Part shown: one piece after another, positions 49,229 to 63,228 of the stretch
Numbering within the stretch: position 1 is the stretch's first letter
Layout of the letters: each line of letters begins with the position of its first letter
Assembly: GCF_022012475.1 (NCBI RefSeq)
Contig: NZ_JAKLWS010000011.1
Span: 62,001 to 126,000, forward strand
Origin: Rhodohalobacter sulfatireducens
Lineage (GTDB): Bacteria > Bacteroidota > Rhodothermia > Balneolales > Balneolaceae
DNA length: 64,000 bases
Direction: 5' to 3'
Notes under the pieces: model-generated
What the model was told of the DNA's origin: nothing
What the model saw: the letters and a program-made list of their open reading frames with translations, nothing else
The model's database searches: none
Translations under genes and position numbers: made by a program

Positions 49229-51334
49229 CTAAAACCTCACCCTCGCCTGTATCCCAAAATCACTCCTGCGATCACCCTGAATCTCATTCAATCCGCTGCT
49301 AATCGTTTGGCGATCTTCATATATAGTCGTAGACAACTTCATCCACAGTTCAAGCCAGTTGGTGGGTTCGTAATTGAAGAGGATGTACATTCGCTGGCCC
49401 TGGTCGAAAAGCATAGTATTTGATAACACGTACAGCAAGTCATTTTCGAATTGATAAACGCGTGAATCGTATCCTTCGGTTTCAAACATAGTTACACGTG
49501 CATCGATCTGAAATCTGTCGCTGAGGTAATAGCGAATATCCTGGAAAACCAGGTATCCCCAGCTTGTGTCGCTGTTTGGTGGAGTAGATTTTGCAAGGTC
49601 AAAACGTGTTCTCAGCCGTACTTTCGGGTGAACCTGGTACTCGGCCTGGTAGCGAATGGAACTTCGAATATCGTCATCAAGCAGGCTGATTTCTCGTCCA
49701 AATTCATCGGTTGTATCGTATTCTTCTTCCCGTGTTTTGGACCGGAAAAGAAGATACATATTCAGATCAGTGTTCGGTTCATATTCTATCATTCCAAGCC
49801 AGTCGAACCCGGATGTTGGCTGACTTTGCAGGAATCTTGCCCCGGGAAAACGGAACTGATCAAAATATCCAATGAGTTGAATTTGATCCGTCAATTCGTG
49901 TTCAATTCCGATGTAAAATCCCTCTTCATTTCCCGGAGTACCGGACTGTTCGCCAAAACCTGCGCCGAAAATGGATTGTAGCTGCTTGTCGTAATACCTG
50001 TAGGAGAGGGCAAGGTTGGTTCGGTTGCCTACTTCAAAATCAGCCCCGGAAAGAAGTCCGTACCCGCCATTATCGGTATAGGCAAATTCACCAAAAAGGA
50101 TTACGTCCTGGATCAAAAAACGATAATCGGCGGAATATCCTGATAACTCCTTTCCGGAGAAATCAAACACCTGGTAGGGTTGATTTCCCGCTTCAACCGT
50201 CTGATCAAACCGATTATGGTAGCCCGAGACTCCAACGAAACCAAACGGAACACGGGCCCGAATGCGTCCGCCGAAGGTTTCCTGGCCAAGATTATTTCGA
50301 CGGCTTCTTTCGTTAACTGTTCTATGATACCCGGTCTCCGTCGGAAAGTTTACAATATTGTCCTCAATGATACTGGCTGTTCGGTCTCGGTTTGAGTAGA
50401 AAGCGCTCACTTGGATATCCTGTCCGTAAGTGGCGGCGATGCCCCGAAAACCTATCGCTTCCTGTGCGGATGTAAATGGGCGGATTCCTCGTTCATTTTT
50501 TGAAACGCCGTTCGTTACATCACGTCCCTTACCAAATGCCCCGCCACTCCAGATTAATAATCCCTGGCCAAATGAAACACTGTAGTCACCAATTACAAAA
50601 TCTTGCAGGTTGCCAACATCATTTACTCCAATGTGCCAAGATGTGTAATCAAAATCGGTAGGGCCGGATAACGGTTCACCGGGATCTTTATCTTGGGTGA
50701 GATTGAGTGAAAGATGATTGCTGGTATAACGAAATCGTTGATAATATTTAGCCGGACTGCCTAAATATCCTCCAGATGAGTCGGGTCTTGCATACCCTTC
50801 CTGCTCCTGGAGGGTCTGTTGATACCGTGTGAACCCCTCAAAACGTCCGTTATTCGTCCAATAACTTGGATCGAGATAGAGGTCCCGGCTCAATTCCAGC
50901 CCGGTTCCAACGGTAATGTAGGGGCGAATCCTGCTGAGGGTTGCCGGTCCAACACCCGGTACATCGGTAAGTTCATCGACTGTTGAAAATGGAGCTTGGT
51001 TTGATCTGTACTGTACAATTCCCTGTGCGAGCCGAAAGTTTAAGCCAGGGATCTGCATCAAATCATCGACAGAGGAGCGATTGATGTTAATTGGGTTATT
51101 CGCTAAGCTCTCCAGGAATTCAACGAGTTCTTCCAGGTCAAGATCAGATTCTTCGGGATCGATCTCTTCAATAGCTTCTTCAAGATCTCGTTCAATCTGA
51201 GTACGGACGGTATCCCTTTGCTGTGCATTCGCTTGTATCGGAAAAATTGAAATAACAAAAATCCCAAATGTAAAGACATATCTCAGCTTTGCCAGTGTCA
51301 GCCAGCTTTGATATCTATCCCCAAAAGCTCTCAT
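49229..51334 (-). CDS. Exported helix-hairpin-helix protein with outer-membrane beta-barrel
   Basis: 701 residues. A signal peptide (hydrophobic about 18-37) is followed by an acidic segment (about 45-75), then two ComEA-like helix-hairpin-helix motifs: NINRSSVDDLMQIPGLN at about 84-100 and STVDELTDVPGVGPATLSRI at 117-136. From about 150 to the end it is a beta-barrel with alternating strands and a terminal aromatic residue (RVRF). HhH motifs bind DNA backbone without sequence specificity. The combination suggests an outer-membrane protein whose periplasmic plug could bind DNA, but function is unproven. Proteins of this layout are common in Bacteroidota. Confidence 0.8.
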   Translation of the reverse strand: MRAFGDRYQSWLTLAKLRYVFTFGIFVISIFPIQANAQQRDTVRTQIERDLEEAIEEIDPEESDLDLEELVEFLESLANNPININRSSVDDLMQIPGLNFRLAQGIVQYRSNQAPFSTVDELTDVPGVGPATLSRIRPYITVGTGLELSRDLYLDPSYWTNNGRFEGFTRYQQTLQEQEGYARPDSSGGYLGSPAKYYQRFRYTSNHLSLNLTQDKDPGEPLSGPTDFDYTSWHIGVNDVGNLQDFVIGDYSVSFGQGLLIWSGGAFGKGRDVTNGVSKNERGIRPFTSAQEAIGFRGIAATYGQDIQVSAFYSNRDRTASIIEDNIVNFPTETGYHRTVNERSRRNNLGQETFGGRIRARVPFGFVGVSGYHNRFDQTVEAGNQPYQVFDFSGKELSGYSADYRFLIQDVILFGEFAYTDNGGYGLLSGADFEVGNRTNLALSYRYYDKQLQSIFGAGFGEQSGTPGNEEGFYIGIEHELTDQIQLIGYFDQFRFPGARFLQSQPTSGFDWLGMIEYEPNTDLNMYLLFRSKTREEEYDTTDEFGREISLLDDDIRSSIRYQAEYQVHPKVRLRTRFDLAKSTPPNSDTSWGYLVFQDIRYYLSDRFQIDARVTMFETEGYDSRVYQFENDLLYVLSNTMLFDQGQRMYILFNYEPTNWLELWMKLSTTIYEDRQTISSGLNEIQGDRRSDFGIQARVRF

Positions 51335-51508: not shown

Positions 51509-52903
51509 CTAACTCCACAGTCGATCCCAGGATTGGCGTTCATCCCATTCCGTTGTTGGCTCGAAAAATCCGATCTCTTCATCCATGTGTTCCTTTACCA
51601 CCTCTTCATTCAGTTCTACGCCAATGCCTGGCTTTTCGGGAACCTGAACATATCCATCCTGTACGATCGGTTTTGGGACACCGGTGACTAAATCGTCGTA
51701 CCAGGGTGTATCCACGAAATGGTGCTCCAACCAAAGAAAATTTTCTGTGGCCGCTGCTGCGTGAACGGATGCTAAAAATGAAACGGGAGAAGAAGCATGA
51801 TGAAGCATCATCGGAATACCATTTTGCTGTGCATAATCACCAATACGTTTCGTGGTCAGTAATCCGCCCGTACCTACAGGGTCGGGGTGGACAATGTCTA
51901 CTGCTTGGTTGTCAATAAGATCTTTAAAACCACCTTCTAAAAGATAGATATCTTCGCCGGTTACGGTTGGAGTGGTGGTAGATTGTGTGATCTCTTTCCA
52001 ATCATTTGTGTACTGCCAGGGGATCAGGTCTTCAAGATAGGCGAGGTTATATTTTTCTGTAGCCCGTGCAATCTTGATCGCTTCATTCTTGTCGAAGTGG
52101 CCCCAGTGATCCGTTCCCATTGGGATTTCATACCCGATTTTGGATCGCATTACATCCACGTACTCCATCAACTTGTCGATTCCCTTATCTGTAACTTGAA
52201 CTCTCGTGAACGGATGTTCCGTATTAGCATAACTGCCGGGGATAGAGTTCCAGCCGCTCAATCCCCCCGATTGATTTTTCCAGAATTCAGCATTTACCAG
52301 GGCACCGGGAACGTCTTCAATCAGGTTGATCCCGATATCCATTTTCAGCGCAGTATAACCGGCGTCAACACGTGCCTGCATTCGTTCTGCATATTCATCA
52401 GGATCTTGCGACATCGTGGTATCACAATAAATTCGCACTGAATCACGGTATTTTCCTCCCAACATCTGGTAAACAGGCACACCGTAAGCTTTCCCGGCCA
52501 GGTCCCAAAGTGCTGTTTCAACGCCCGATACCCCTCCGCCTTGTCTTCCGTGATACCCGAACTGTTTTATGATTTTGAATAGTTTTTCCACGTTACATGG
52601 ATTTTCTCCCAAAATCCGGCTTTTCAGCTCCAGTGCATAGCGATAGTCGCCAATATCGCGCACATCACCATGGCCTACAATGTCTTGATTGGTGTAAATG
52701 CGGATGATTGGTGTACGAAGGACTTGAACCACGCGCATGTCGGTAATTTTTAACTCTGACGGCCGGGAAGCCCGTTGAACGTTTTGAGATGCATAGGCAA
52801 CTTCATCACCAATAGAAGTTAAAGAGAGGCCTGCAAGGCTTAAGCCTCCAAGAGAAGTTTTCTTCAGGAAGCTTCGGCGGCTGTTATTGTTTTCCTTCTT
52901 CAT
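51509..52903 (-). CDS. Tat-exported enolase-superfamily dehydratase (mandelate racemase type), copy 1
   Basis: 464 residues with a twin-arginine signal (SRRSFLKKTS at 8-17, hydrophobic to about 38). Enolase-superfamily residues can be placed: K187 and D189 on strand 2, metal ligands D265 (GTDHWGHF), E291 and E317, and the Asp-His dyad D341 (HPDPVGTGG) and H368 (MLHHA). This is the mandelate-racemase/acid-sugar-dehydratase layout with K-x-D instead of K-x-K. A 70-residue stretch before D265 is longer than usual. Substrate unknown; an acid sugar is likely. Last gene of the operon starting at 56443; paralogue of 54065-55486. Confidence 0.85.
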   Translation of the reverse strand: MKKENNNSRRSFLKKTSLGGLSLAGLSLTSIGDEVAYASQNVQRASRPSELKITDMRVVQVLRTPIIRIYTNQDIVGHGDVRDIGDYRYALELKSRILGENPCNVEKLFKIIKQFGYHGRQGGGVSGVETALWDLAGKAYGVPVYQMLGGKYRDSVRIYCDTTMSQDPDEYAERMQARVDAGYTALKMDIGINLIEDVPGALVNAEFWKNQSGGLSGWNSIPGSYANTEHPFTRVQVTDKGIDKLMEYVDVMRSKIGYEIPMGTDHWGHFDKNEAIKIARATEKYNLAYLEDLIPWQYTNDWKEITQSTTTPTVTGEDIYLLEGGFKDLIDNQAVDIVHPDPVGTGGLLTTKRIGDYAQQNGIPMMLHHASSPVSFLASVHAAAATENFLWLEHHFVDTPWYDDLVTGVPKPIVQDGYVQVPEKPGIGVELNEEVVKEHMDEEIGFFEPTTEWDERQSWDRLWS

Positions 52904-52935
52904 TGTATATTGAATTTTAATTACCGTTTTGTAAA

Positions 52936-54063
52936 TCAGGTAGCCGGTTTCATAGCAGGTTCCGGTGCTTCTCCTGCATCCTCTTCCTTTTCAGATTTTC
53001 GTCTCCAGTAGTTGGCAAGTGTGGAGCCGGAGATATTCATCCAGGGACCAAAAATAGCCGGTGCAAGGCCAACGGTTGCCAGTCGCCCCATCTCCTGGGC
53101 GAGTCCCGATGCCATACCTCCATTCTGCATTCCGACTTCAAACGCAATGGTTCGGCACGACTTTTCATCCATCCCTACAAGGCGACAACCCCAATACCCA
53201 AACAGGTATCCCAGGGCATTATGAATGATTGCTGCGAGGATCAGCAGAAGTCCAATGGTTATAAGTGAATCGCGTCCCGCTGCAGTAATTACAGCGATGA
53301 TAAAGGCGATCCCTGCCATGGAAACTGCCGGCATAATATCATCCAGCCACTTTATTTTCCCGTGAAGGAAATGATTGAAAAGCAGTCCAAGTACTATGGG
53401 CGCAATAATCATATTCAGGATGCTGAGCATCATTCCGTATGTATCAATAGGTACAAACTGCCCAGCCAGTAGCTGCATCAAATAGGGAGTAGCCAGCGGT
53501 GATAACATGGTTGAAACAGCTGTAAGTGTAATTGACAAGGCAAGGTCTGCTTTCGCAATAAAGGCCATCACGTTTGAAGCAACGCCGCCCGGGCAGGAGC
53601 CAATTAACACAACTCCCGCCGCAACTTCAGCCGGAAAACCAAAACTCAAAGCCAGGCTTATTCCGACAATCGGCATTATTGTATATTGACAGATCACCCC
53701 AACCGCCACGCCTTTCGGTTTTTTGAAAACTCCTTTAAAGTCCTGAATGCTCAATTGAGTACCCATCCCAAACATGATCAGCTGTATGAGCGGCACAATC
53801 AGGTTGCTTAGGTCATACCCGCCCCATGAAGTCATGTATTGAGGGTAAAACATCGAGAATGTTACGGCTGAAAAAATCCATAGTGAAAAGGCAAAAGATT
53901 TAAAAATCGTATCCGTACCTCTTACTCCGATCGCAAGCGAGAGAAACATGCCTGTTGAGAATATTGCAACGAATGGTGAGCTGCTGTCCACGAACAGCAT
54001 TACAATCAGTCCGATTAGGCAAATTAAGCTTAACCAAAGAAATGCTTTAAGAGCAGTTTTCAT
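52936..54063 (-). CDS. Bile acid:sodium symporter (BASS) family transporter
   Basis: 375 residues from the ATG at 54063, which has GGAG nine bases upstream; a start at 54138 would overlap the upstream gene and add a charged, non-hydrophobic stretch. About ten hydrophobic segments are present. BASS landmarks are LIMFGMGTQLSIQDF, GFPAEVAAGVVLIGSCPGGV and FEVGMQNGGMASGLA. BASS proteins import organic anions such as pyruvate, 2-ketopantoate or bile acids with Na+. It is located between two exported dehydratase genes with a one-base gap to the upstream one, which suggests uptake of their product. The C-terminal tail is Glu/Pro-rich. Confidence 0.88.
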   Translation of the reverse strand: MKTALKAFLWLSLICLIGLIVMLFVDSSSPFVAIFSTGMFLSLAIGVRGTDTIFKSFAFSLWIFSAVTFSMFYPQYMTSWGGYDLSNLIVPLIQLIMFGMGTQLSIQDFKGVFKKPKGVAVGVICQYTIMPIVGISLALSFGFPAEVAAGVVLIGSCPGGVASNVMAFIAKADLALSITLTAVSTMLSPLATPYLMQLLAGQFVPIDTYGMMLSILNMIIAPIVLGLLFNHFLHGKIKWLDDIMPAVSMAGIAFIIAVITAAGRDSLITIGLLLILAAIIHNALGYLFGYWGCRLVGMDEKSCRTIAFEVGMQNGGMASGLAQEMGRLATVGLAPAIFGPWMNISGSTLANYWRRKSEKEEDAGEAPEPAMKPAT

Positions 54064-54064
54064 C

Positions 54065-55486
54065 TTAACTCCAGGTTCTGTCCCACGTTCGAATTTCGTT
54101 CCATTCCGGTGTCGGTTCGAAGTAACCGGCGTCTTCAATCAAGTGCTCCCGAACGGCCTCTTCGTTGATTTCAACCCCGAGTCCCGGTTTTTCGGGAACA
54201 GGTGTGTAACCATCCTGGAAAATGGCATTTTTGTCCTCCTGGACCAGGTCGTACCAATTTGGAGTGTCCACGGAGTGATGCTCAAGAGCAACAAAATTCT
54301 CGGTAGCCGCCGCCGCATGGACGCTAGCCATAAATCCGAATGGTGCACCGGCGTAGTGCAGCATCATGGCGATGCCGTTCTGCATAGCATAATCACCGAT
54401 TCGTTTTGTCTCCAAAATTCCACCGGAAGAACCGAGATCGGGATGGATCATATCCACGGCTTTTTTATCGATCAACTCTTTAAACCCATCAAGCAGGTAG
54501 ATATCCTCACCAGTCATGGTTGGTGTAGTAGTTGCTTCAGAAATCTCTTTCCACTCATCTGCATATTGCCAGGCAATCAGGTCTTCCACGTAAGCAAGTG
54601 TATAGGGCTCAGCGGCACGAGCAATTTTAATTGCTTCATTCTTATCAAAATGTCCCCAGTGATCGGTACCCATCGGGATTTCGTACCCAATTGTATCACG
54701 CATCACCCGCAGATACTCCATCATTCGTTCGAGGCCTTGCTGTGTAACTTGAATCCTCGTAAAGGGATGATCGATCTGTCCGTAATCTCCTTGTTCACCT
54801 GAATATTGAGATCGCAGTTCTCGTTGACCTTTCGGGCCGTATTCCCGGGTATTTGTGAGCGACCCTTCTTCGTCATCCACCAACCCGATTCCCATATCCA
54901 TCTTCAGAAAGGTGTAGCCCAAATCTACTCGCTCTTGCATTCTTCGGGCGTATTCGTGTGGATCATCAGATGTGGTTGTATCACAGTAAAGGCGAACTTT
55001 GTCGCGATATTTTCCACCCAGCAATTGATAAACCGGAACGCCGTATGCTTTCCCGGTCAGGTCCCAAAGAGCGGTCTCAACTCCGGAAACTCCGCCGCCC
55101 TGGCGACCATGCCCGCCAAACTGTTTGATGATCTTAAACACCTTCTCAACATTGCATGGATTTTCACCCAATAGCCTGCTTTTCAGGAATAGAGCGTACT
55201 CTTTTGCACCACCGTCGCGAACCTCGCCATATCCCGAAATTCCCTGATTCGTGTCAATTCGAATCAGTGGAACGCGAAACGGAATTCCGTCAATTTCAGC
55301 AATTCGAAGGTCTGTAATTTCCAGCTCAGACGGACTTGAATATCGATTCACATTTTGTGCAAGATGTCCGATTTGATCCTCAAAAGGAAGGGCAAACATA
55401 CCGAACAAACCCAGTCCGCCTGCTCCGGCTTTTTTGATGAAATCTCGCCGGTCAACATCTCCATTACTTTTTCTATCGTTGTCCAT
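54065..55486 (-). CDS. Tat-exported enolase-superfamily dehydratase (mandelate racemase type), copy 2
   Basis: 473 residues with a twin-arginine signal (DRRDFIKKAG at 12-21). Residues correspond to copy 1: K195, D197, D275, E301, E327, D350 (HPDLGSSGG) and H377 (MLHYAG). Overall it is strongly similar to copy 1 in the barrel but differs in the capping domain segment DGIPFRVPLIR and in the region 200-240. This suggests that the two copies handle different epimers or chain lengths of the same substrate class (inference). The gene lies 12 bases after the RraA-like gene and one base before the transporter start. Confidence 0.85.
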   Translation of the reverse strand: MDNDRKSNGDVDRRDFIKKAGAGGLGLFGMFALPFEDQIGHLAQNVNRYSSPSELEITDLRIAEIDGIPFRVPLIRIDTNQGISGYGEVRDGGAKEYALFLKSRLLGENPCNVEKVFKIIKQFGGHGRQGGGVSGVETALWDLTGKAYGVPVYQLLGGKYRDKVRLYCDTTTSDDPHEYARRMQERVDLGYTFLKMDMGIGLVDDEEGSLTNTREYGPKGQRELRSQYSGEQGDYGQIDHPFTRIQVTQQGLERMMEYLRVMRDTIGYEIPMGTDHWGHFDKNEAIKIARAAEPYTLAYVEDLIAWQYADEWKEISEATTTPTMTGEDIYLLDGFKELIDKKAVDMIHPDLGSSGGILETKRIGDYAMQNGIAMMLHYAGAPFGFMASVHAAAATENFVALEHHSVDTPNWYDLVQEDKNAIFQDGYTPVPEKPGLGVEINEEAVREHLIEDAGYFEPTPEWNEIRTWDRTWS

Positions 55487-55498
55487 GATCGTATCCTT

Positions 55499-56443
55499 TT
55501 AGATTTCTTCGGTTTCTATAATTCGGTTGATGGTAGACTCGCCAATTCCATACTCTTCATGGAGCATTGTTCGGTTCTCTTCCAACCAGTTTAAAAAGTC
55601 CTGCCTTATAGCTTCAGTCCAGTCCGTGTCCATCTGGCCGGCCGTATAGGTACCTTCCTGTACTCGCTGATGGGCAAAAATATCGGTAAGGCGTATTACT
55701 TCGGATTCATCCACAACTTCTTCGGCAAGATGAGCAGGGATAAAAATAACCCCGGTCTCTTTAGCCAAAACCACATCACCGGGCAATACGGTTACCTCAC
55801 CAATCATAATAGGCGTATTTAATCCCATCAGCATCATCTCTTGTAGAAACGAAGGATCCCATTCACGTACAAAAGCATTGAATCCGTCTATTGCAGAGAG
55901 TCCTTCTCTGTCGCGTGATGATCCATCAAACACAACGCCGTTCCCGGAGTTTGCATAGATTGTATTTCCAAGTCGGTCGCCAATCAGCGTTCCGTCCTTA
56001 ATTTTCCTAAATCCATCGGCTACATACACATCTCCCTGGACCAATACATCAATGGGCCAGGTGTTCATCGGGCCGGATCTGCCGTCTTCCATTCCTTGAG
56101 CAATGATCGTTTCTTCAAGGGCTGGGCGACTTGGCATATATTGAGCAGTCACTGCCCGTCCCACGACCGGTTCACCGGTTTTCAAAATCTCCCAGTCACC
56201 GCCGGTAAATTGATTATGGTATCCAAATCCCCTGATAATTCCCCAGGCTTCCTCAATCGAAACATGTTCCATTCGTTCAAGAACATCGTCAGCTACTTTG
56301 GGCCTGCCGTCCTCAAACCGTTCGCCTTCCCACTGAGGTGTGAGCCAGATCATTTTTTCTTTTGATATAGTTTGAGCAGAAGAGGGCAGGTAAACAACAA
56401 ATATCAGTATAGATACAAAGAGTAGTGAGGTCAGTTTTTTCAT
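55499..56443 (-). CDS. Exported RraA-family protein (aldolase-like)
   Basis: 314 residues with a Sec signal peptide (about 1-23, MKKLTSLLFVSILIFVVYLP). The RraA fold follows at about 60-260, with GDRLGN and VFDGSSRDREG, which keeps the Arg-Asp pair that binds substrate and metal in the HMG/CHA aldolases of this family. Cytoplasmic RraA regulators of RNase E lack this pair and have no signal peptide, so an aldolase or decarboxylase of an oxoacid in the periplasm is more likely. It is the first gene of the operon; its product would act with the dehydratases. Confidence 0.8.
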   Translation of the reverse strand: MKKLTSLLFVSILIFVVYLPSSAQTISKEKMIWLTPQWEGERFEDGRPKVADDVLERMEHVSIEEAWGIIRGFGYHNQFTGGDWEILKTGEPVVGRAVTAQYMPSRPALEETIIAQGMEDGRSGPMNTWPIDVLVQGDVYVADGFRKIKDGTLIGDRLGNTIYANSGNGVVFDGSSRDREGLSAIDGFNAFVREWDPSFLQEMMLMGLNTPIMIGEVTVLPGDVVLAKETGVIFIPAHLAEEVVDESEVIRLTDIFAHQRVQEGTYTAGQMDTDWTEAIRQDFLNWLEENRTMLHEEYGIGESTINRIIETEEI

Positions 56444-56591: not shown

Positions 56592-57413
56592 CTAAAACTT
56601 TACAGCCAGGTCAAGTGCCGGGCTCAATCCAAGCGGGTTATGCTGTTGAAGTGCAAAGTTTACATCCCATCTGCTGGATTTGTACCCGAATCCAAAGGAA
56701 TACGTTTCCGGTTGGGTGGTAATACCGGCTCGAATAAAGAGGGATTGAATAATTTCGAACTGAACACCGCTTCGAAAGGAGAGGGGAAACATCACATCTT
56801 TCACAATTTCGGCTGTGACGAGAGCTTCCGGAGTTAGCATATAACTTAAACCTGTGGCCAATTCACGTGGAAGTTCTTCATCCGTATCACCATAGGTTGG
56901 CTGGTTGAGATTAGTAGCGCGGGCACCGAACCAGAGGTCATCTGTAATTTCCGCTGCGAGTCCCAAATCAAACCCAATAGCTCCGGCTGCACCGTAATCA
57001 CCCCCCTGGAAAATGTGGGTGTATGAAACCGAGGCTCCATAGTAAAATCGATCGAGGTTGTTTTTGTAAGCAAGGAGAAACCTGTTTTCGTTGAACAGAT
57101 TAAACCCATACCGGTGAATTCCCGCCCCCAGTGTTCCCCAGCTTGTTTGCGTAGTAAGGTTGGCAGCCATATCAGTAATTTCTGAAATACCCACATAACG
57201 AAAACCGTAAAATGAAACGCGGTTCCCATCCGTTGGCATCATGGCAACATTAGAAAAGAGTGACCAGTTAGTATTGGGTACGGCTACTCCGGTTTGGCCC
57301 ATTGCTAAAGAGCTTGCACCCAGGCTTGTTTGTGCTTGCACTTGACCGTATGCCCCTAACGTTGCAAGAAGTAAAACACCTACAAAGTAATTAAGTTGAA
57401 TCCTTTGTATCAT
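56592..57413 (-). CDS. PorV/PorQ-like outer-membrane beta-barrel protein
   Basis: 273 residues from the ATG at 57413, which gives a normal signal peptide (MIQRIQLNYFVGV to about VQA). A start at 57446 with a G-rich upstream sequence would add 11 residues. The mature part is beta-strand rich with SSLAMGQTGVAVPN near the N-terminus, as in PorV/PorQ and UPF0164 proteins of type IX secretion genomes, and terminates AVKF. It is transcribed divergently from porD with about 75 bases between. The T9SS link is inference from similarity and neighbourhood. Confidence 0.65.
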   Translation of the reverse strand: MIQRIQLNYFVGVLLLATLGAYGQVQAQTSLGASSLAMGQTGVAVPNTNWSLFSNVAMMPTDGNRVSFYGFRYVGISEITDMAANLTTQTSWGTLGAGIHRYGFNLFNENRFLLAYKNNLDRFYYGASVSYTHIFQGGDYGAAGAIGFDLGLAAEITDDLWFGARATNLNQPTYGDTDEELPRELATGLSYMLTPEALVTAEIVKDVMFPLSFRSGVQFEIIQSLFIRAGITTQPETYSFGFGYKSSRWDVNFALQQHNPLGLSPALDLAVKF

Positions 57414-57487
57414 AGAAGAAGTCAATTTAAGCCAAGTAGTAATCATCCCCGAAAAAATAGCAGTTTATTTGCCATTAGTATCATAAG

Positions 57488-58408
57488 ATGGAAGCTAAAC
57501 ATCAACTAAACATGGTTAGATTTTTATTTTTTTCTCTTATTGGATTGATATTGCCGGTTATAACCCTTGCACAGGAGTTTGATTGCGATGTATCGATAAA
57601 TGACCGTCAGATTAGTGGTAGTTCGTATGATTATATTTCTGAACTGGAGACGGCTCTTGAAAATTATATCAATGGCTACCGATGGACGAACGACCGATAC
57701 CAGGATCAAGAAAGAATTCGATGCAGCTGGCAGATTGTACTTACCGGGGTGGACGATAATTTTAACTACACCGCTGAAATTGCCCTAACTGTTCGGCGTC
57801 CCATTTACAATACGAACCGGGAATCGCTGGCTATTCTGTTTAGTGACAATAACTGGCGATTCTACTATCCCCAGAATAAGAACCTGGTTCATGATGAACT
57901 TCAGTTCGACGATCTGACCAGTTTCGTGGACTTTTATGTTTACATGATGCTAGGGTACGATTACGATACTTTTTCGGAGCTTGGCGGAACCCAATATTAC
58001 GGCCAGGCGCAGTCGGTATTTGAGATTGGACAAAATTCAGGTTCGCAGGGGTGGGGGCGTTCAATCGGGGCACAGCGAAACCGCTATGGATTGATTAACG
58101 ACATTACGAGTCCTGCTTATGAAGATTTCAGGCGCGCGATTTACATCTACCATCGGGTAGGACTTGATCAGTTTACAATGCAACCGCAGGAAGCAAGGAA
58201 CGAAGTTTTACGGTCTTTGGAGATCATCAGGGAGAACAAACAACTGACGAATAATAATTACCTGTTCGATATTTTCTTTAGTGCGAAATACACGGAGATT
58301 GTGGCAATATTTCGGGATGCCGATGCAGAGATGAGAACCCGTGCCTACAATATTTTAAGTGATGTTGATCCCGCCCATACCTCAGAATATGAGAAACTTC
58401 AAACATAA
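57488..58408 (+). CDS. porD: DUF4835 family protein (PorD of type IX secretion)
   Basis: 306 residues with a signal peptide ending near ITLAQ. The start of the mature protein, EFDCDVSINDRQISGSS, and the segment NGYRWTNDRYQDQERIRCSW are hallmarks of DUF4835/PorD. PorD proteins are periplasmic or outer-membrane factors needed for type IX secretion in Porphyromonas. The exact start is ambiguous between 57488 and an ATG at 57512. It is followed after about 110 bases by the rhamnose genes. Confidence 0.85.
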   Translation: MEAKHQLNMVRFLFFSLIGLILPVITLAQEFDCDVSINDRQISGSSYDYISELETALENYINGYRWTNDRYQDQERIRCSWQIVLTGVDDNFNYTAEIALTVRRPIYNTNRESLAILFSDNNWRFYYPQNKNLVHDELQFDDLTSFVDFYVYMMLGYDYDTFSELGGTQYYGQAQSVFEIGQNSGSQGWGRSIGAQRNRYGLINDITSPAYEDFRRAIYIYHRVGLDQFTMQPQEARNEVLRSLEIIRENKQLTNNNYLFDIFFSAKYTEIVAIFRDADAEMRTRAYNILSDVDPAHTSEYEKLQT

Positions 58409-61764: not shown

Positions 61765-63228
61765 ATGGGTAAGAAAATCTTATTGGTTCTTTTGGGGGCA
61801 TTTCTAACATTCGTAATCGTTGTAATGGTGCGAACCTTTCAACTGGGAAACACACAGGTTGAACCGCAGGCAAATCCGCAGGTTGTCTGGGATGAAGACG
61901 CAATGATTCGCCGATTTTCGCAATCTCTCCAGTATCAAACTATTTCAGGAGATACAGGAGCAGAGCTGGACTCCACAGCTTTTAGTGACTTTTTGACTTT
62001 TTTGAGAGTTTCCTTTCCACGAGTTCATAACACGATGGACGATACGCTCTTCAATGATTTTACACCCCTTTACTACTGGGAAGGAACCGACTCCTCGCTG
62101 GATCCCATTTTATTGATGGGCCATTACGACGTGGTACCGGTGGATTCATCCAATATCGATAGCTGGCCGCACCCGCCATTTTCAGGTACTGTACAGGACG
62201 GATATATCTGGGGCAGGGGATCGATGGATAACAAGTTTACGGTGATGGGATTACTGGAAACCGCTGAGTACCTGATAGCTGAAGGATATCAACCCAGGAG
62301 AAGTGTCTATTTTGCGTTTGGTCACGATGAAGAAATTGGCGGTGAACAAGGGGCGAGAACTGTTTCCAGGTATCTTCAGGATAATGATGTTGTCCTTCAA
62401 ACTGTGATTGATGAAGGAGGGGTGGTGATTGACGGTGCCCTCCCGGTAGATCGACCCGTTGCCATGGTGGGAATTGCAGAGAAAGGATATCTCTCACTTG
62501 AATTGGTTGCAAGAAGTGCCGGCGGACATTCATCGCGTCCCACGGAGGACAACGCCGTAAAAATTCTGAGTGAAGCAATTGTCAAACTTTCTGAAAACCA
62601 GTTTCCCTCCCGTATCGATGGAGCCGTGGAGCAGATGTTTGAGTCGGTAGCAAGCGAAATGCCGTTTGGCTTTAAAGTGATCTATTCAAACCGTTGGCTT
62701 ACGGATGGTATTTTCAAAAATCAGCTTTTATCTGATCCATCTTCGGCGGCGATGGTACGTACAACAATCGCACCCACAATGTTAAGAGCCGGTGTGAAAG
62801 ATAATGTATTGCCAAATGAGGCCAGGGCTGTGGTGAATTTCAGAATTCTTCCGGGTGATACGTTTGAAACAGTAACCGACCATGTAGAGAGTGTGATTGA
62901 TGATGAACGAATCAGCGTTCAGCGCTATGGAGAAATCCAGGTGTTGCCCTCCGGTGTGTCGAATGTAAACAGTTCAGGGTTTGAAACATTGCAACAAACC
63001 ATTATGGATGTAATGCGGGATGTTTATGTAGCTCCCTACTTAGTTTATGGAGCTACCGATTCAAGACACTATTCATCGTTATCCGACCAGGTATATCGGT
63101 TTGCTCCAATGATGATCTCGTCTGAAGACTTGAGTCGAATACATGGAACCGCTGAGAGGGTGAGTGTAGACTCTTACGTAAACACAGTTCGATTTTACTC
63201 TCATTATATTCGAATGAGCACTGAATAA
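61765..63228 (+). CDS. M20 family peptidase (PM20D1/carboxypeptidase S-like)
   Basis: 487 residues with an N-terminal hydrophobic signal anchor (about 5-25). Zinc-binding motifs are intact: GHYDVVPVD, GRGSMDNKFTV and DEEIGG, with a C-terminal His in YGATDSRHYSSL. The lid domain lies at about 240-370. PM20D1-like enzymes hydrolyse or form N-acyl amino acids or cleave dipeptides. The protein probably faces the periplasm. The gene is followed by an EVE-domain gene after about 70 bases. Confidence 0.9.
   Translation: MGKKILLVLLGAFLTFVIVVMVRTFQLGNTQVEPQANPQVVWDEDAMIRRFSQSLQYQTISGDTGAELDSTAFSDFLTFLRVSFPRVHNTMDDTLFNDFTPLYYWEGTDSSLDPILLMGHYDVVPVDSSNIDSWPHPPFSGTVQDGYIWGRGSMDNKFTVMGLLETAEYLIAEGYQPRRSVYFAFGHDEEIGGEQGARTVSRYLQDNDVVLQTVIDEGGVVIDGALPVDRPVAMVGIAEKGYLSLELVARSAGGHSSRPTEDNAVKILSEAIVKLSENQFPSRIDGAVEQMFESVASEMPFGFKVIYSNRWLTDGIFKNQLLSDPSSAAMVRTTIAPTMLRAGVKDNVLPNEARAVVNFRILPGDTFETVTDHVESVIDDERISVQRYGEIQVLPSGVSNVNSSGFETLQQTIMDVMRDVYVAPYLVYGATDSRHYSSLSDQVYRFAPMMISSEDLSRIHGTAERVSVDSYVNTVRFYSHYIRMSTE

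Follow-up and report, generated by a model that had tools for sequence, protein, structure and literature searches.

In this study, a 64,000-nucleotide stretch of the Rhodohalobacter sulfatireducens genome (contig NZ_JAKLWS010000011.1, forward-strand positions 62,001 to 126,000; hereafter the window) was analyzed for a four-gene operon on its minus strand. The operon encodes an RraA-like protein, two enolase-superfamily proteins (EnoA and EnoB) and a transporter of the bile acid:sodium symporter (BASS) family, and may perform the upper half of an Entner-Doudoroff (ED)-type sugar-acid pathway outside the cytoplasm. The host genome, of Balneolaceae kinship, is a 5.1-Mb draft of 138 contigs. The gene order is RraA-like, EnoA, BASS and EnoB, as given by the open reading frame (ORF) listing and by direct reading of the sequence. 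The ORF listing starts BASS at a TTG at 54138, while an ATG at 54063, one base past the EnoA stop, was read directly; because of this ATG, the gaps are 12, 1 and 32 bases, so that the arrangement described in the first-pass annotation stands. The features are as follows.

55499-56443, minus strand: RraA-like protein, 314 aa, with a Sec-type signal peptide (PF03737)
56375-56443, minus strand: likely Sec signal peptide of RraA, residues 1-23, with the boundary set by eye where the alignment consensus is Ala-Gln
55910-55915, minus strand: R177-D178 of RraA, the end of the D-X20-R-D motif (D156 at 55976-55978), from alignment
54065-55486, minus strand: EnoA, 473 aa, enolase-superfamily protein of the mandelate racemase (MR) subgroup with a twin-arginine translocation (Tat) signal (Pfam, alignment and fold match)
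55445-55450, minus strand: twin arginines R13-R14 of EnoA, invariant in 17/17 and 43/43 aligned sequences
52936-54063, minus strand: BASS-family transporter, 375 aa (Pfam, NCBIfam and residue conservation)
51509-52903, minus strand: EnoB, 464 aa, second Tat-signal enolase-superfamily protein and tandem paralogue of EnoA (Pfam)
52874-52879, minus strand: twin arginines R9-R10 of EnoB (sequence and alignments)

A scan for promoters and terminators found sites about as frequently as in shuffled sequences (7 vs. 8.3 and 8 vs. 6.1), and is therefore uninformative on the operon ends.

Export signals were called by simple rules of our own (Tat motif, hydrophobic stretch and lipobox) and not by a trained predictor. 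EnoA and EnoB carry RRxF-type motifs, DRRDFIKK and SRRSFLKK, respectively, with a hydrophobic stretch, and the N-terminus of RraA is of the Sec type, ending in SSA-QT. Among the homologues, the rules assigned Tat signals to 95 of 99 close Eno proteins, and 95 of 106 RraA proteins had an export signal of some type; for these counts, L054, L059, L062 and L090 were dropped as they are the same genomes as L041, L045, L047 and L053. The export of all three enzymes, as first annotated, is thus supported at the level of prediction by their own N-termini and by those of their homologues.

The two Eno proteins share 65% identity, and EnoB has orthologues of 83.6-84.8% identity in three relatives (L042-L044). 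Pfam found both the N- and C-terminal MR_MLE domains (MR_MLE_C, 158.2 bits for EnoA and 163.2 for EnoB; cut-off 29.4), which places them in the MR subgroup of the enolase superfamily. D275, E301, E327, D350, H377 and E402 of EnoA are invariant in 43 aligned sequences; we take D275, E301 and E327 to be the metal ligands and D350/H377 to be the Asp-His dyad of the MR subgroup, partly from general knowledge and partly by alignment to 2qq6. These domains and invariant residues bear out the earlier assignment to the branch of the superfamily that holds acid-sugar dehydratases. The structure model of EnoA (predicted local distance difference test, pLDDT, 86.6) matched 2qq6 best (VIA Z 47.1, root-mean-square deviation (rmsd) 1.7, 369 aligned), followed by many putative dehydratases and cycloisomerases. 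The Eno proteins could be cycloisomerases, for example of 3,6-anhydro-galactonate, instead of dehydratases, and the product would still be a 2-keto-3-deoxy acid; the Zobellia 3,6-anhydro-D-galactonate cycloisomerase 5olc is both a structural neighbour (Z 42.0) and a sequence match (3.4e-27). However, 2qq6 and putative dehydratases match as well or better, and we regard a cycloisomerase role as improbable; agarase and carrageenase genes were not searched for. The window's contig also encodes a third, distant enolase-superfamily protein with a Tat-type start (L038:2416-3768; 27% identity), and Adhaeribacter aquaticus carries six tandem Eno genes followed by one RraA gene (L082:8154-18193).

The RraA-like protein matched PF03737 with 59 bits (cut-off 24.5). 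R177 and D178 are present in 50/50 and D156 in 43/50 aligned proteins, and the D-X20-R-D pattern that they form is presumably the motif of RraA proteins and of 4-hydroxy-4-methyl-2-oxoglutarate/4-carboxy-4-hydroxy-2-oxoadipate (HMG/CHA) aldolases. The AlphaFold2 (AF2) model (pLDDT 93.1) gave a VIA Z of 24.1 to 5x15 and of 22.1 to the HMG/CHA aldolase 3noj (rmsd 2.3, 199 aligned), so the predicted fold is that of this family, while the score on the HMG/CHA aldolase equivalog TIGR02798 was 46.1 against a cut-off of 304.5. RraA may be an aldolase, an epimerase that acts through retro-aldol cleavage (interconverting 2-keto-3-deoxygluconate (KDG) and 2-keto-3-deoxygalactonate (KDGal)), or a decarboxylase/dehydratase resembling FlDet, and its function is the main gap of the pathway proposed here. 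The window's genome encodes a second RraA with a Sec-type N-terminus (contig C81, L037:9514-10413), with neither Eno nor BASS as a neighbour. Some loci (L045, L055, L077 and L104) contain two or three RraA genes; L055 and L077 each hold a tandem of two RraA-Eno pairs that belong to different subfamilies, as if the pairs duplicate together.

The BASS protein contains an SBF domain (140.5 bits; Pfam cut-off 24.3), and its A162, S163, N164, Q313, N314 and G316 are conserved in 46 or 47 of 47 aligned sequences. In ASBT_NM, A113, S114, N115, N265 and G267 bind either sodium or pantoate, the latter by its carboxylate and 2-hydroxyl (PMC10645422), and the corresponding residues are retained in BASS. 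It differs at the positions of Thr112 (mostly Leu or Val) and His294 (Met here; 44/47), and scored 260.6 bits on the PanS ketopantoate/pantoate transporter model, below the cut-off of 400. The presence of a dedicated transporter in the operon, part of the first-pass annotation, is thus supported.

Co-occurrence was assayed in a phylum sample of 394 genomes, the own genome included, with a cut-off of E<=1e-30 for Eno, RraA and BASS. Eno was found in 19 genomes, including five in which the best match is distant (E 1e-33 to 1e-37; G348, G372, G049, G186 and G194). RraA was present in 19/19 Eno-positive vs. 4/375 Eno-negative genomes (Fisher p 8e-29, kinship ignored), and BASS in 17/19 vs. 32/375. 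In a scan of genome contigs that matched at least 567 relatives, the best 80 were kept, mostly Bacteroidota with a few Verrucomicrobia, Phycisphaerae, Omnitrophota and Acidobacteriota. Neighbours were counted in 78 of these 80 loci, as L062 and L132 lack a called Eno ORF; in L062 (Roseithermus), however, tblastn matched Eno next to an RraA gene. Within 5 kb of Eno, RraA was found in 58 loci (2 more farther away), BASS in 29 (1 farther; 30 loci under looser thresholds), SusD-like genes in 31 (3 farther), SusC-like in 28 (2 farther), UxuA-like in 6, AGE epimerase in 5 and KdgK in 2. Counted by taxon label (n=60), RraA lay near Eno in 42 and BASS in 27. Twelve of the 20 loci without a near RraA were tested, and 11 of these 12 genomes carry RraA elsewhere. 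The gene sets are carried by, among others, Gracilimonas mengyeensis, Dyadobacter fermentans and Cyclobacterium xiamenense. These results indicated that the four-gene arrangement exceeds chance, and conservation of the gene set, a check that the first-pass annotation had named, was confirmed by these counts.

The neighbourhoods in relatives add context beyond that annotation, since a pyrroloquinoline quinone (PQQ) dehydrogenase, an SMP-30 lactonase, exported mannonate-dehydratase-like proteins, a KDG-kinase-like protein and a 2-keto-3-deoxy-6-phosphogluconate (KDPG) aldolase were found together in one operon. In the same-genus genome G108 (L044), twelve consecutive genes on one strand, with gaps of 12-231 bases, run in the order SusC, SusD, UxuA-like2, UxuA-like1, RraA, EnoA, BASS, EnoB, PQQ dehydrogenase, SMP-30 lactonase, KdgK-like kinase and KDPG/2-keto-4-hydroxyglutarate (KHG) aldolase (Eda). 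Both UxuA-like proteins have Tat signals, and the PQQ dehydrogenase has a cytochrome c domain. The aldolase (355 vs. 275 bits) and UxuA-like1 (228 vs. 191 on a subfamily model) exceeded their NCBIfam cut-offs, and the kinase, PQQ dehydrogenase and UxuA-like2 passed those of their Pfam domains. Shorter versions were seen in G282 (RraA-EnoA-BASS-EnoB-AGE epimerase-PQQ dehydrogenase-SMP-30), G223 (RraA-EnoA-BASS-EnoB-AGE) and G278 (RraA-EnoA-BASS with a Tat-type UxuA-like protein above the subfamily cut-off). In two Bacteroidales loci (L093 and L117), KdgK adjoins BASS next to RraA-Eno, whereas in a control of 30 loci out of KdgK matches in 85 genomes of the order of G396, BASS lay within 1.5 kb of KdgK in 0/30 and KDPG aldolase in 25/30. 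KdgK and KDPG aldolase were both present in 23/23 RraA-positive genomes vs. 4/17 RraA-negative relatives, and PQQ dehydrogenase in 22/23 vs. 1/17.

The same export rules were applied to the neighbouring families. PQQ dehydrogenase (6/6), SMP-30 (6/7), AGE epimerase (8/11), amidohydrolase (8/8) and DgaE-like proteins (5/6) were mostly predicted to be exported, while none of the 11 KdgK and 8 Eda proteins carried a signal. Among UxuA-like copies in Eno/RraA loci, 9/10 had Tat signals (three of them match the family weakly, at 116-127 bits), compared with 0/4 UxuA copies in hexuronate-type operons, which serve as a partial internal control. The predicted signals thus suggest a compartment split, with the upper enzymes exported and the kinase and aldolase retained. 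In the window's genome, contig C62 carries KdgK and KDPG aldolase together, along with a glucuronate isomerase and a putative TRAP (tripartite ATP-independent periplasmic) transporter. A KDG kinase and a KDPG aldolase, both part of the semi-phosphorylative ED pathway, are present by homology there and in G108. Homologues for most steps therefore occur in the window's genome, yet the operon holds only the exported and transport part, and the KdgK/Eda and PQQ dehydrogenase genes lie on other contigs. What the sequences show directly is the gene order, the families, the export motifs, the co-occurrence and the conservation of catalytic and binding residues; taken together, the neighbour families would imply that oxidation of a sugar is followed by opening of the lactone, dehydration to KDG, import, phosphorylation and cleavage.

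On balance, we consider it somewhat probable that this operon specifies the portion of a sugar-acid pathway that runs outside the cytoplasm, with the upper ED-type half in the periplasm and BASS importing a 2-keto-3-deoxy acid. The substrates, the direction of transport and each reaction are what we infer from the sequences. The sugar acids would be aldonates, perhaps formed outside by PQQ dehydrogenases and SMP-30 lactonases; Tat-exported EnoA and EnoB would dehydrate them in the periplasm, giving a 2-keto-3-deoxy acid that is most likely KDG or its epimer; Sec-exported RraA would act on this acid; and BASS would import the resulting 2-oxo acid, probably with sodium. Cytoplasmic KDG kinase and KDPG aldolase would finish the route, in the window's genome presumably from the hexuronate-type operon on the other contig.

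The first-pass annotation had proposed that the reactions occur outside and that only the product is imported, an idea that the export signals, the conservation and the operons of relatives support, while its further claims, cleavage to pyruvate by RraA and import of pyruvate by BASS, are not established. In such a periplasmic non-phosphorylative route, Eno would make KDG, RraA would cleave it outside to pyruvate and glyceraldehyde, and BASS would import the pyruvate. The near-constant presence of RraA with Eno (19/19, and elsewhere in 11/12 genomes without a nearby one), the R-D pair invariant in 50 proteins and the modelled fold close to an HMG/CHA aldolase would suit this chemistry, and KDG, a 4-hydroxy-2-oxo acid, is of the substrate type of HMG/CHA-type aldolases. 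We nevertheless hold this route to be rather unlikely, since KdgK is found in the operon (L044) or beside BASS (L093 and L117), Eno-BASS loci without RraA in view exist (L112 and L107, though both genomes have RraA elsewhere), and no glyceraldehyde-use gene was recognized among the recurrent neighbours viewed, most of which have no family annotation. The position of KdgK favours import of the intact 2-keto-3-deoxy acid, but the near-constant pairing of RraA with Eno suggests that RraA acts in some way on the Eno product. Pyruvate alone as the BASS substrate was weighed and lowered, to a probability that is reduced but not negligible.

RraA might instead work as FlDet does. Eno would then convert an aldarate to a 2-keto-3-deoxy aldarate, from which RraA, as a dehydratase/decarboxylase, would produce alpha-ketoglutaric semialdehyde for import; FlDet, an RraA-family protein of Flavobacterium UMI-01, does this on 2-keto-3-deoxy-glucarate (PMC8563752). 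However, the gene context is one of mono-acid chemistry (dehydrogenase, lactonase, mannonate-dehydratase-like and KDG-kinase-like proteins), and no semialdehyde dehydrogenase was recognized among the recurrent neighbours viewed, in which no search was aimed at one. In addition, FlDet has 237 residues and, because the purified protein starts at Met, is not an exported form (PMC8563752). FlDet-like chemistry was lowered for its poor fit with the gene context, and we give it little probability.

Several observations weigh against the periplasmic pathway with import of a 2-keto-3-deoxy acid. None of the four operon proteins reached an NCBIfam cut-off for a named activity, and therefore none can be named from its family alone. 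On the galactonate, gluconate/galactonate and mannonate dehydratase equivalogs, EnoA scored 210/311, 165/750 and 155/550 and EnoB 186/311, 168/750 and 156/550 (bits/cut-off), all below cut-off. Galactonate and mannonate dehydratases carry a D-x-H motif at strand 3, whereas the Eno motif is D275-H276-x-G278, compared with D-x-H-G in 2qq6, and the Eno substrate is therefore not readable from sequence. A route of KDG import, kinase and KDPG aldolase has no evident place for RraA. In G108, the kinase (500/700 and 213/440), the PQQ dehydrogenase (438/833), UxuA-like2 (126/191) and UxuA-like1 on the uxuA equivalog (157/200) were below their NCBIfam cut-offs, and a UxuA-like protein encoded beside RraA-Eno in L169 lacks a signal. 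None of the three PQQ dehydrogenases of the window's genome lies next to the operon, KdgK was linked to the operon in only 3 loci seen, and KdgK matched in 10 of the 12 tested Eno genomes without a nearby RraA but not in the other two.

Further, RraA-positive genomes are larger (median 4.8 vs. 3.5 Mb), and 6/7 viewed KdgK/Eda loci are hexuronate-type operons, assigned by family from a glucuronate isomerase in L180 and UxuA in L184 and otherwise by sequence reading. The co-occurrence of KdgK/Eda and PQQ dehydrogenase is thus partly non-specific, because hexuronate use and larger genomes contribute. KdgK/Eda co-occurrence was accordingly lowered as proof of the pathway, and weight was put on the three operon-linked KdgK loci. 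The sub-threshold scores would also suit a scavenging set of some other kind, in which the exported proteins serve something other than sugar-acid catabolism, as EnoA, EnoB, RraA and BASS all fall below named-activity cut-offs; the recurrent sugar-acid neighbours and SusC/SusD argue against it, and we think it quite unlikely.

RraA-BASS loci without Eno bear on the proposed shared intermediate. In the 4/394 genomes with RraA but no Eno at the cut-off, RraA adjoins BASS (L154-L157), together with DgaE-like pyridoxal phosphate (PLP) proteins (4/4; 163-210 bits in the three scanned, cut-off 385), amidohydrolase/deacetylases (4/4; above cut-off in both loci scanned), RidA-like proteins (3/4) and SMP-30 (3/4). 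DgaE, D-glucosaminate-6-phosphate ammonia lyase, yields a 2-keto-3-deoxy acid with loss of ammonia. In a BASS-centred view of 20 picked loci, one (L191) holds a DgaE-like protein with BASS, SMP-30, RidA and amidohydrolase and no RraA in view, seven (L202-L208) hold OiaK/OiaX-like genes, and no sugar-acid gene was recognized in the remaining 12. Because two unrelated chemistries, those of Eno and of DgaE-like proteins, meet at BASS, and mostly at RraA, the Eno-less loci point to KDG as the common compound. More broadly, and tentatively, many Bacteroidota and some Verrucomicrobia and Phycisphaerae could possess a modular extracytoplasmic route, possible but short of probable, that converts neutral sugars, mannonate-type acids and amino-sugar acids to KDG through interchangeable exported Eno, UxuA-like or DgaE-like enzymes, with adjustment by an exported RraA and import by BASS-family proteins.

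As separate observations, the DgaE-like lyases with Tat-type starts, the exported deacetylases and the RidA-like proteins of L154-L157 and L191 perhaps form an extracytoplasmic N-acetylglucosaminate route. In L202-L208, a longer BASS stands beside DUF1537-kinase-like (OiaK-like) and RuBisCO-like (OiaX-like) genes, again a BASS adjoining a sugar-acid kinase; those of L205 scored 378/700 (OiaK) and 499.5/700 (OiaX) on NCBIfam, below cut-off, and the other six loci were assigned by sequence reading. Beside the operon, window positions 49229-51334 encode a 701-aa protein whose start resembles a signal peptide and which contains a helix-hairpin-helix (ComEA-like) domain; Pfam matched nothing in its long C-terminal part. 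Positions 56592-58408, also beside the operon, matched the PorV/PorQ family (32.9, under the cut-off of 90) and the type IX secretion protein PorD (296.6 vs. 170, above it).

To our knowledge, sugar-acid dehydration is cytoplasmic in the described ED variants, and we know of no record of KDG as a BASS substrate. A search of an open-access library found no description of this gene set or pathway, nor does the available part of PMC5507952 describe the gene set, in agreement with the earlier remark that such an extracytoplasmic ED-like route is not known. If periplasmic dehydration is true, reactive sugar intermediates would be kept outside the cytoplasm, carbon would be committed to a compound which few competitors take up, and one transporter might serve several sugars. 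Three poorly described groups, the Tat-exported enolase-superfamily proteins, the Sec-exported RraA proteins and a BASS clade, would also gain suggested roles.

The semi-phosphorylative ED pathway consists of aldose dehydrogenase, lactonase, aldonate dehydratase, KDG kinase and KDPG aldolase. The G108 operon encodes the same five steps by family assignment, several of them below curated cut-offs, but here its first three enzymes (dehydrogenase, lactonase and dehydratase) bear export signals, with a transporter gene in their midst. Periplasmic PQQ glucose oxidation in Pseudomonas and Gluconobacter ends at gluconate and its keto forms. The sugar would likewise be oxidized outside the cytoplasm by PQQ enzymes here, while dehydration to the 2-keto-3-deoxy acid would be outside too. 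The Zobellia enzyme 5olc, whose product class is a 2-keto-3-deoxy acid, resembles EnoA in its MR-branch fold and product class, but shares 26% identity with it in the structural alignment. DgaE-like proteins sit with RraA and BASS (L154-L157) or with BASS (L191), and differ from DgaE in their scores (131-210 vs. 385 bits), Tat-type starts and position beside deacetylases, with RidA-like proteins in 4/5 loci. PanS and ASBT_NM belong to the same family as BASS, which keeps the pantoate/sodium-site residues given in PMC10645422, but falls under the PanS cut-off and has Met at the His294 position. Finally, FlDet is likewise an RraA-family protein of a Bacteroidota species with a 2-keto-3-deoxy sugar acid as its substrate, but it is a shorter protein with its own Met start that dehydrates and decarboxylates a 2-keto-3-deoxy aldarate (PMC8563752), whereas the RraA of the operon has a predicted Sec signal and would act on the product of the exported Eno proteins.

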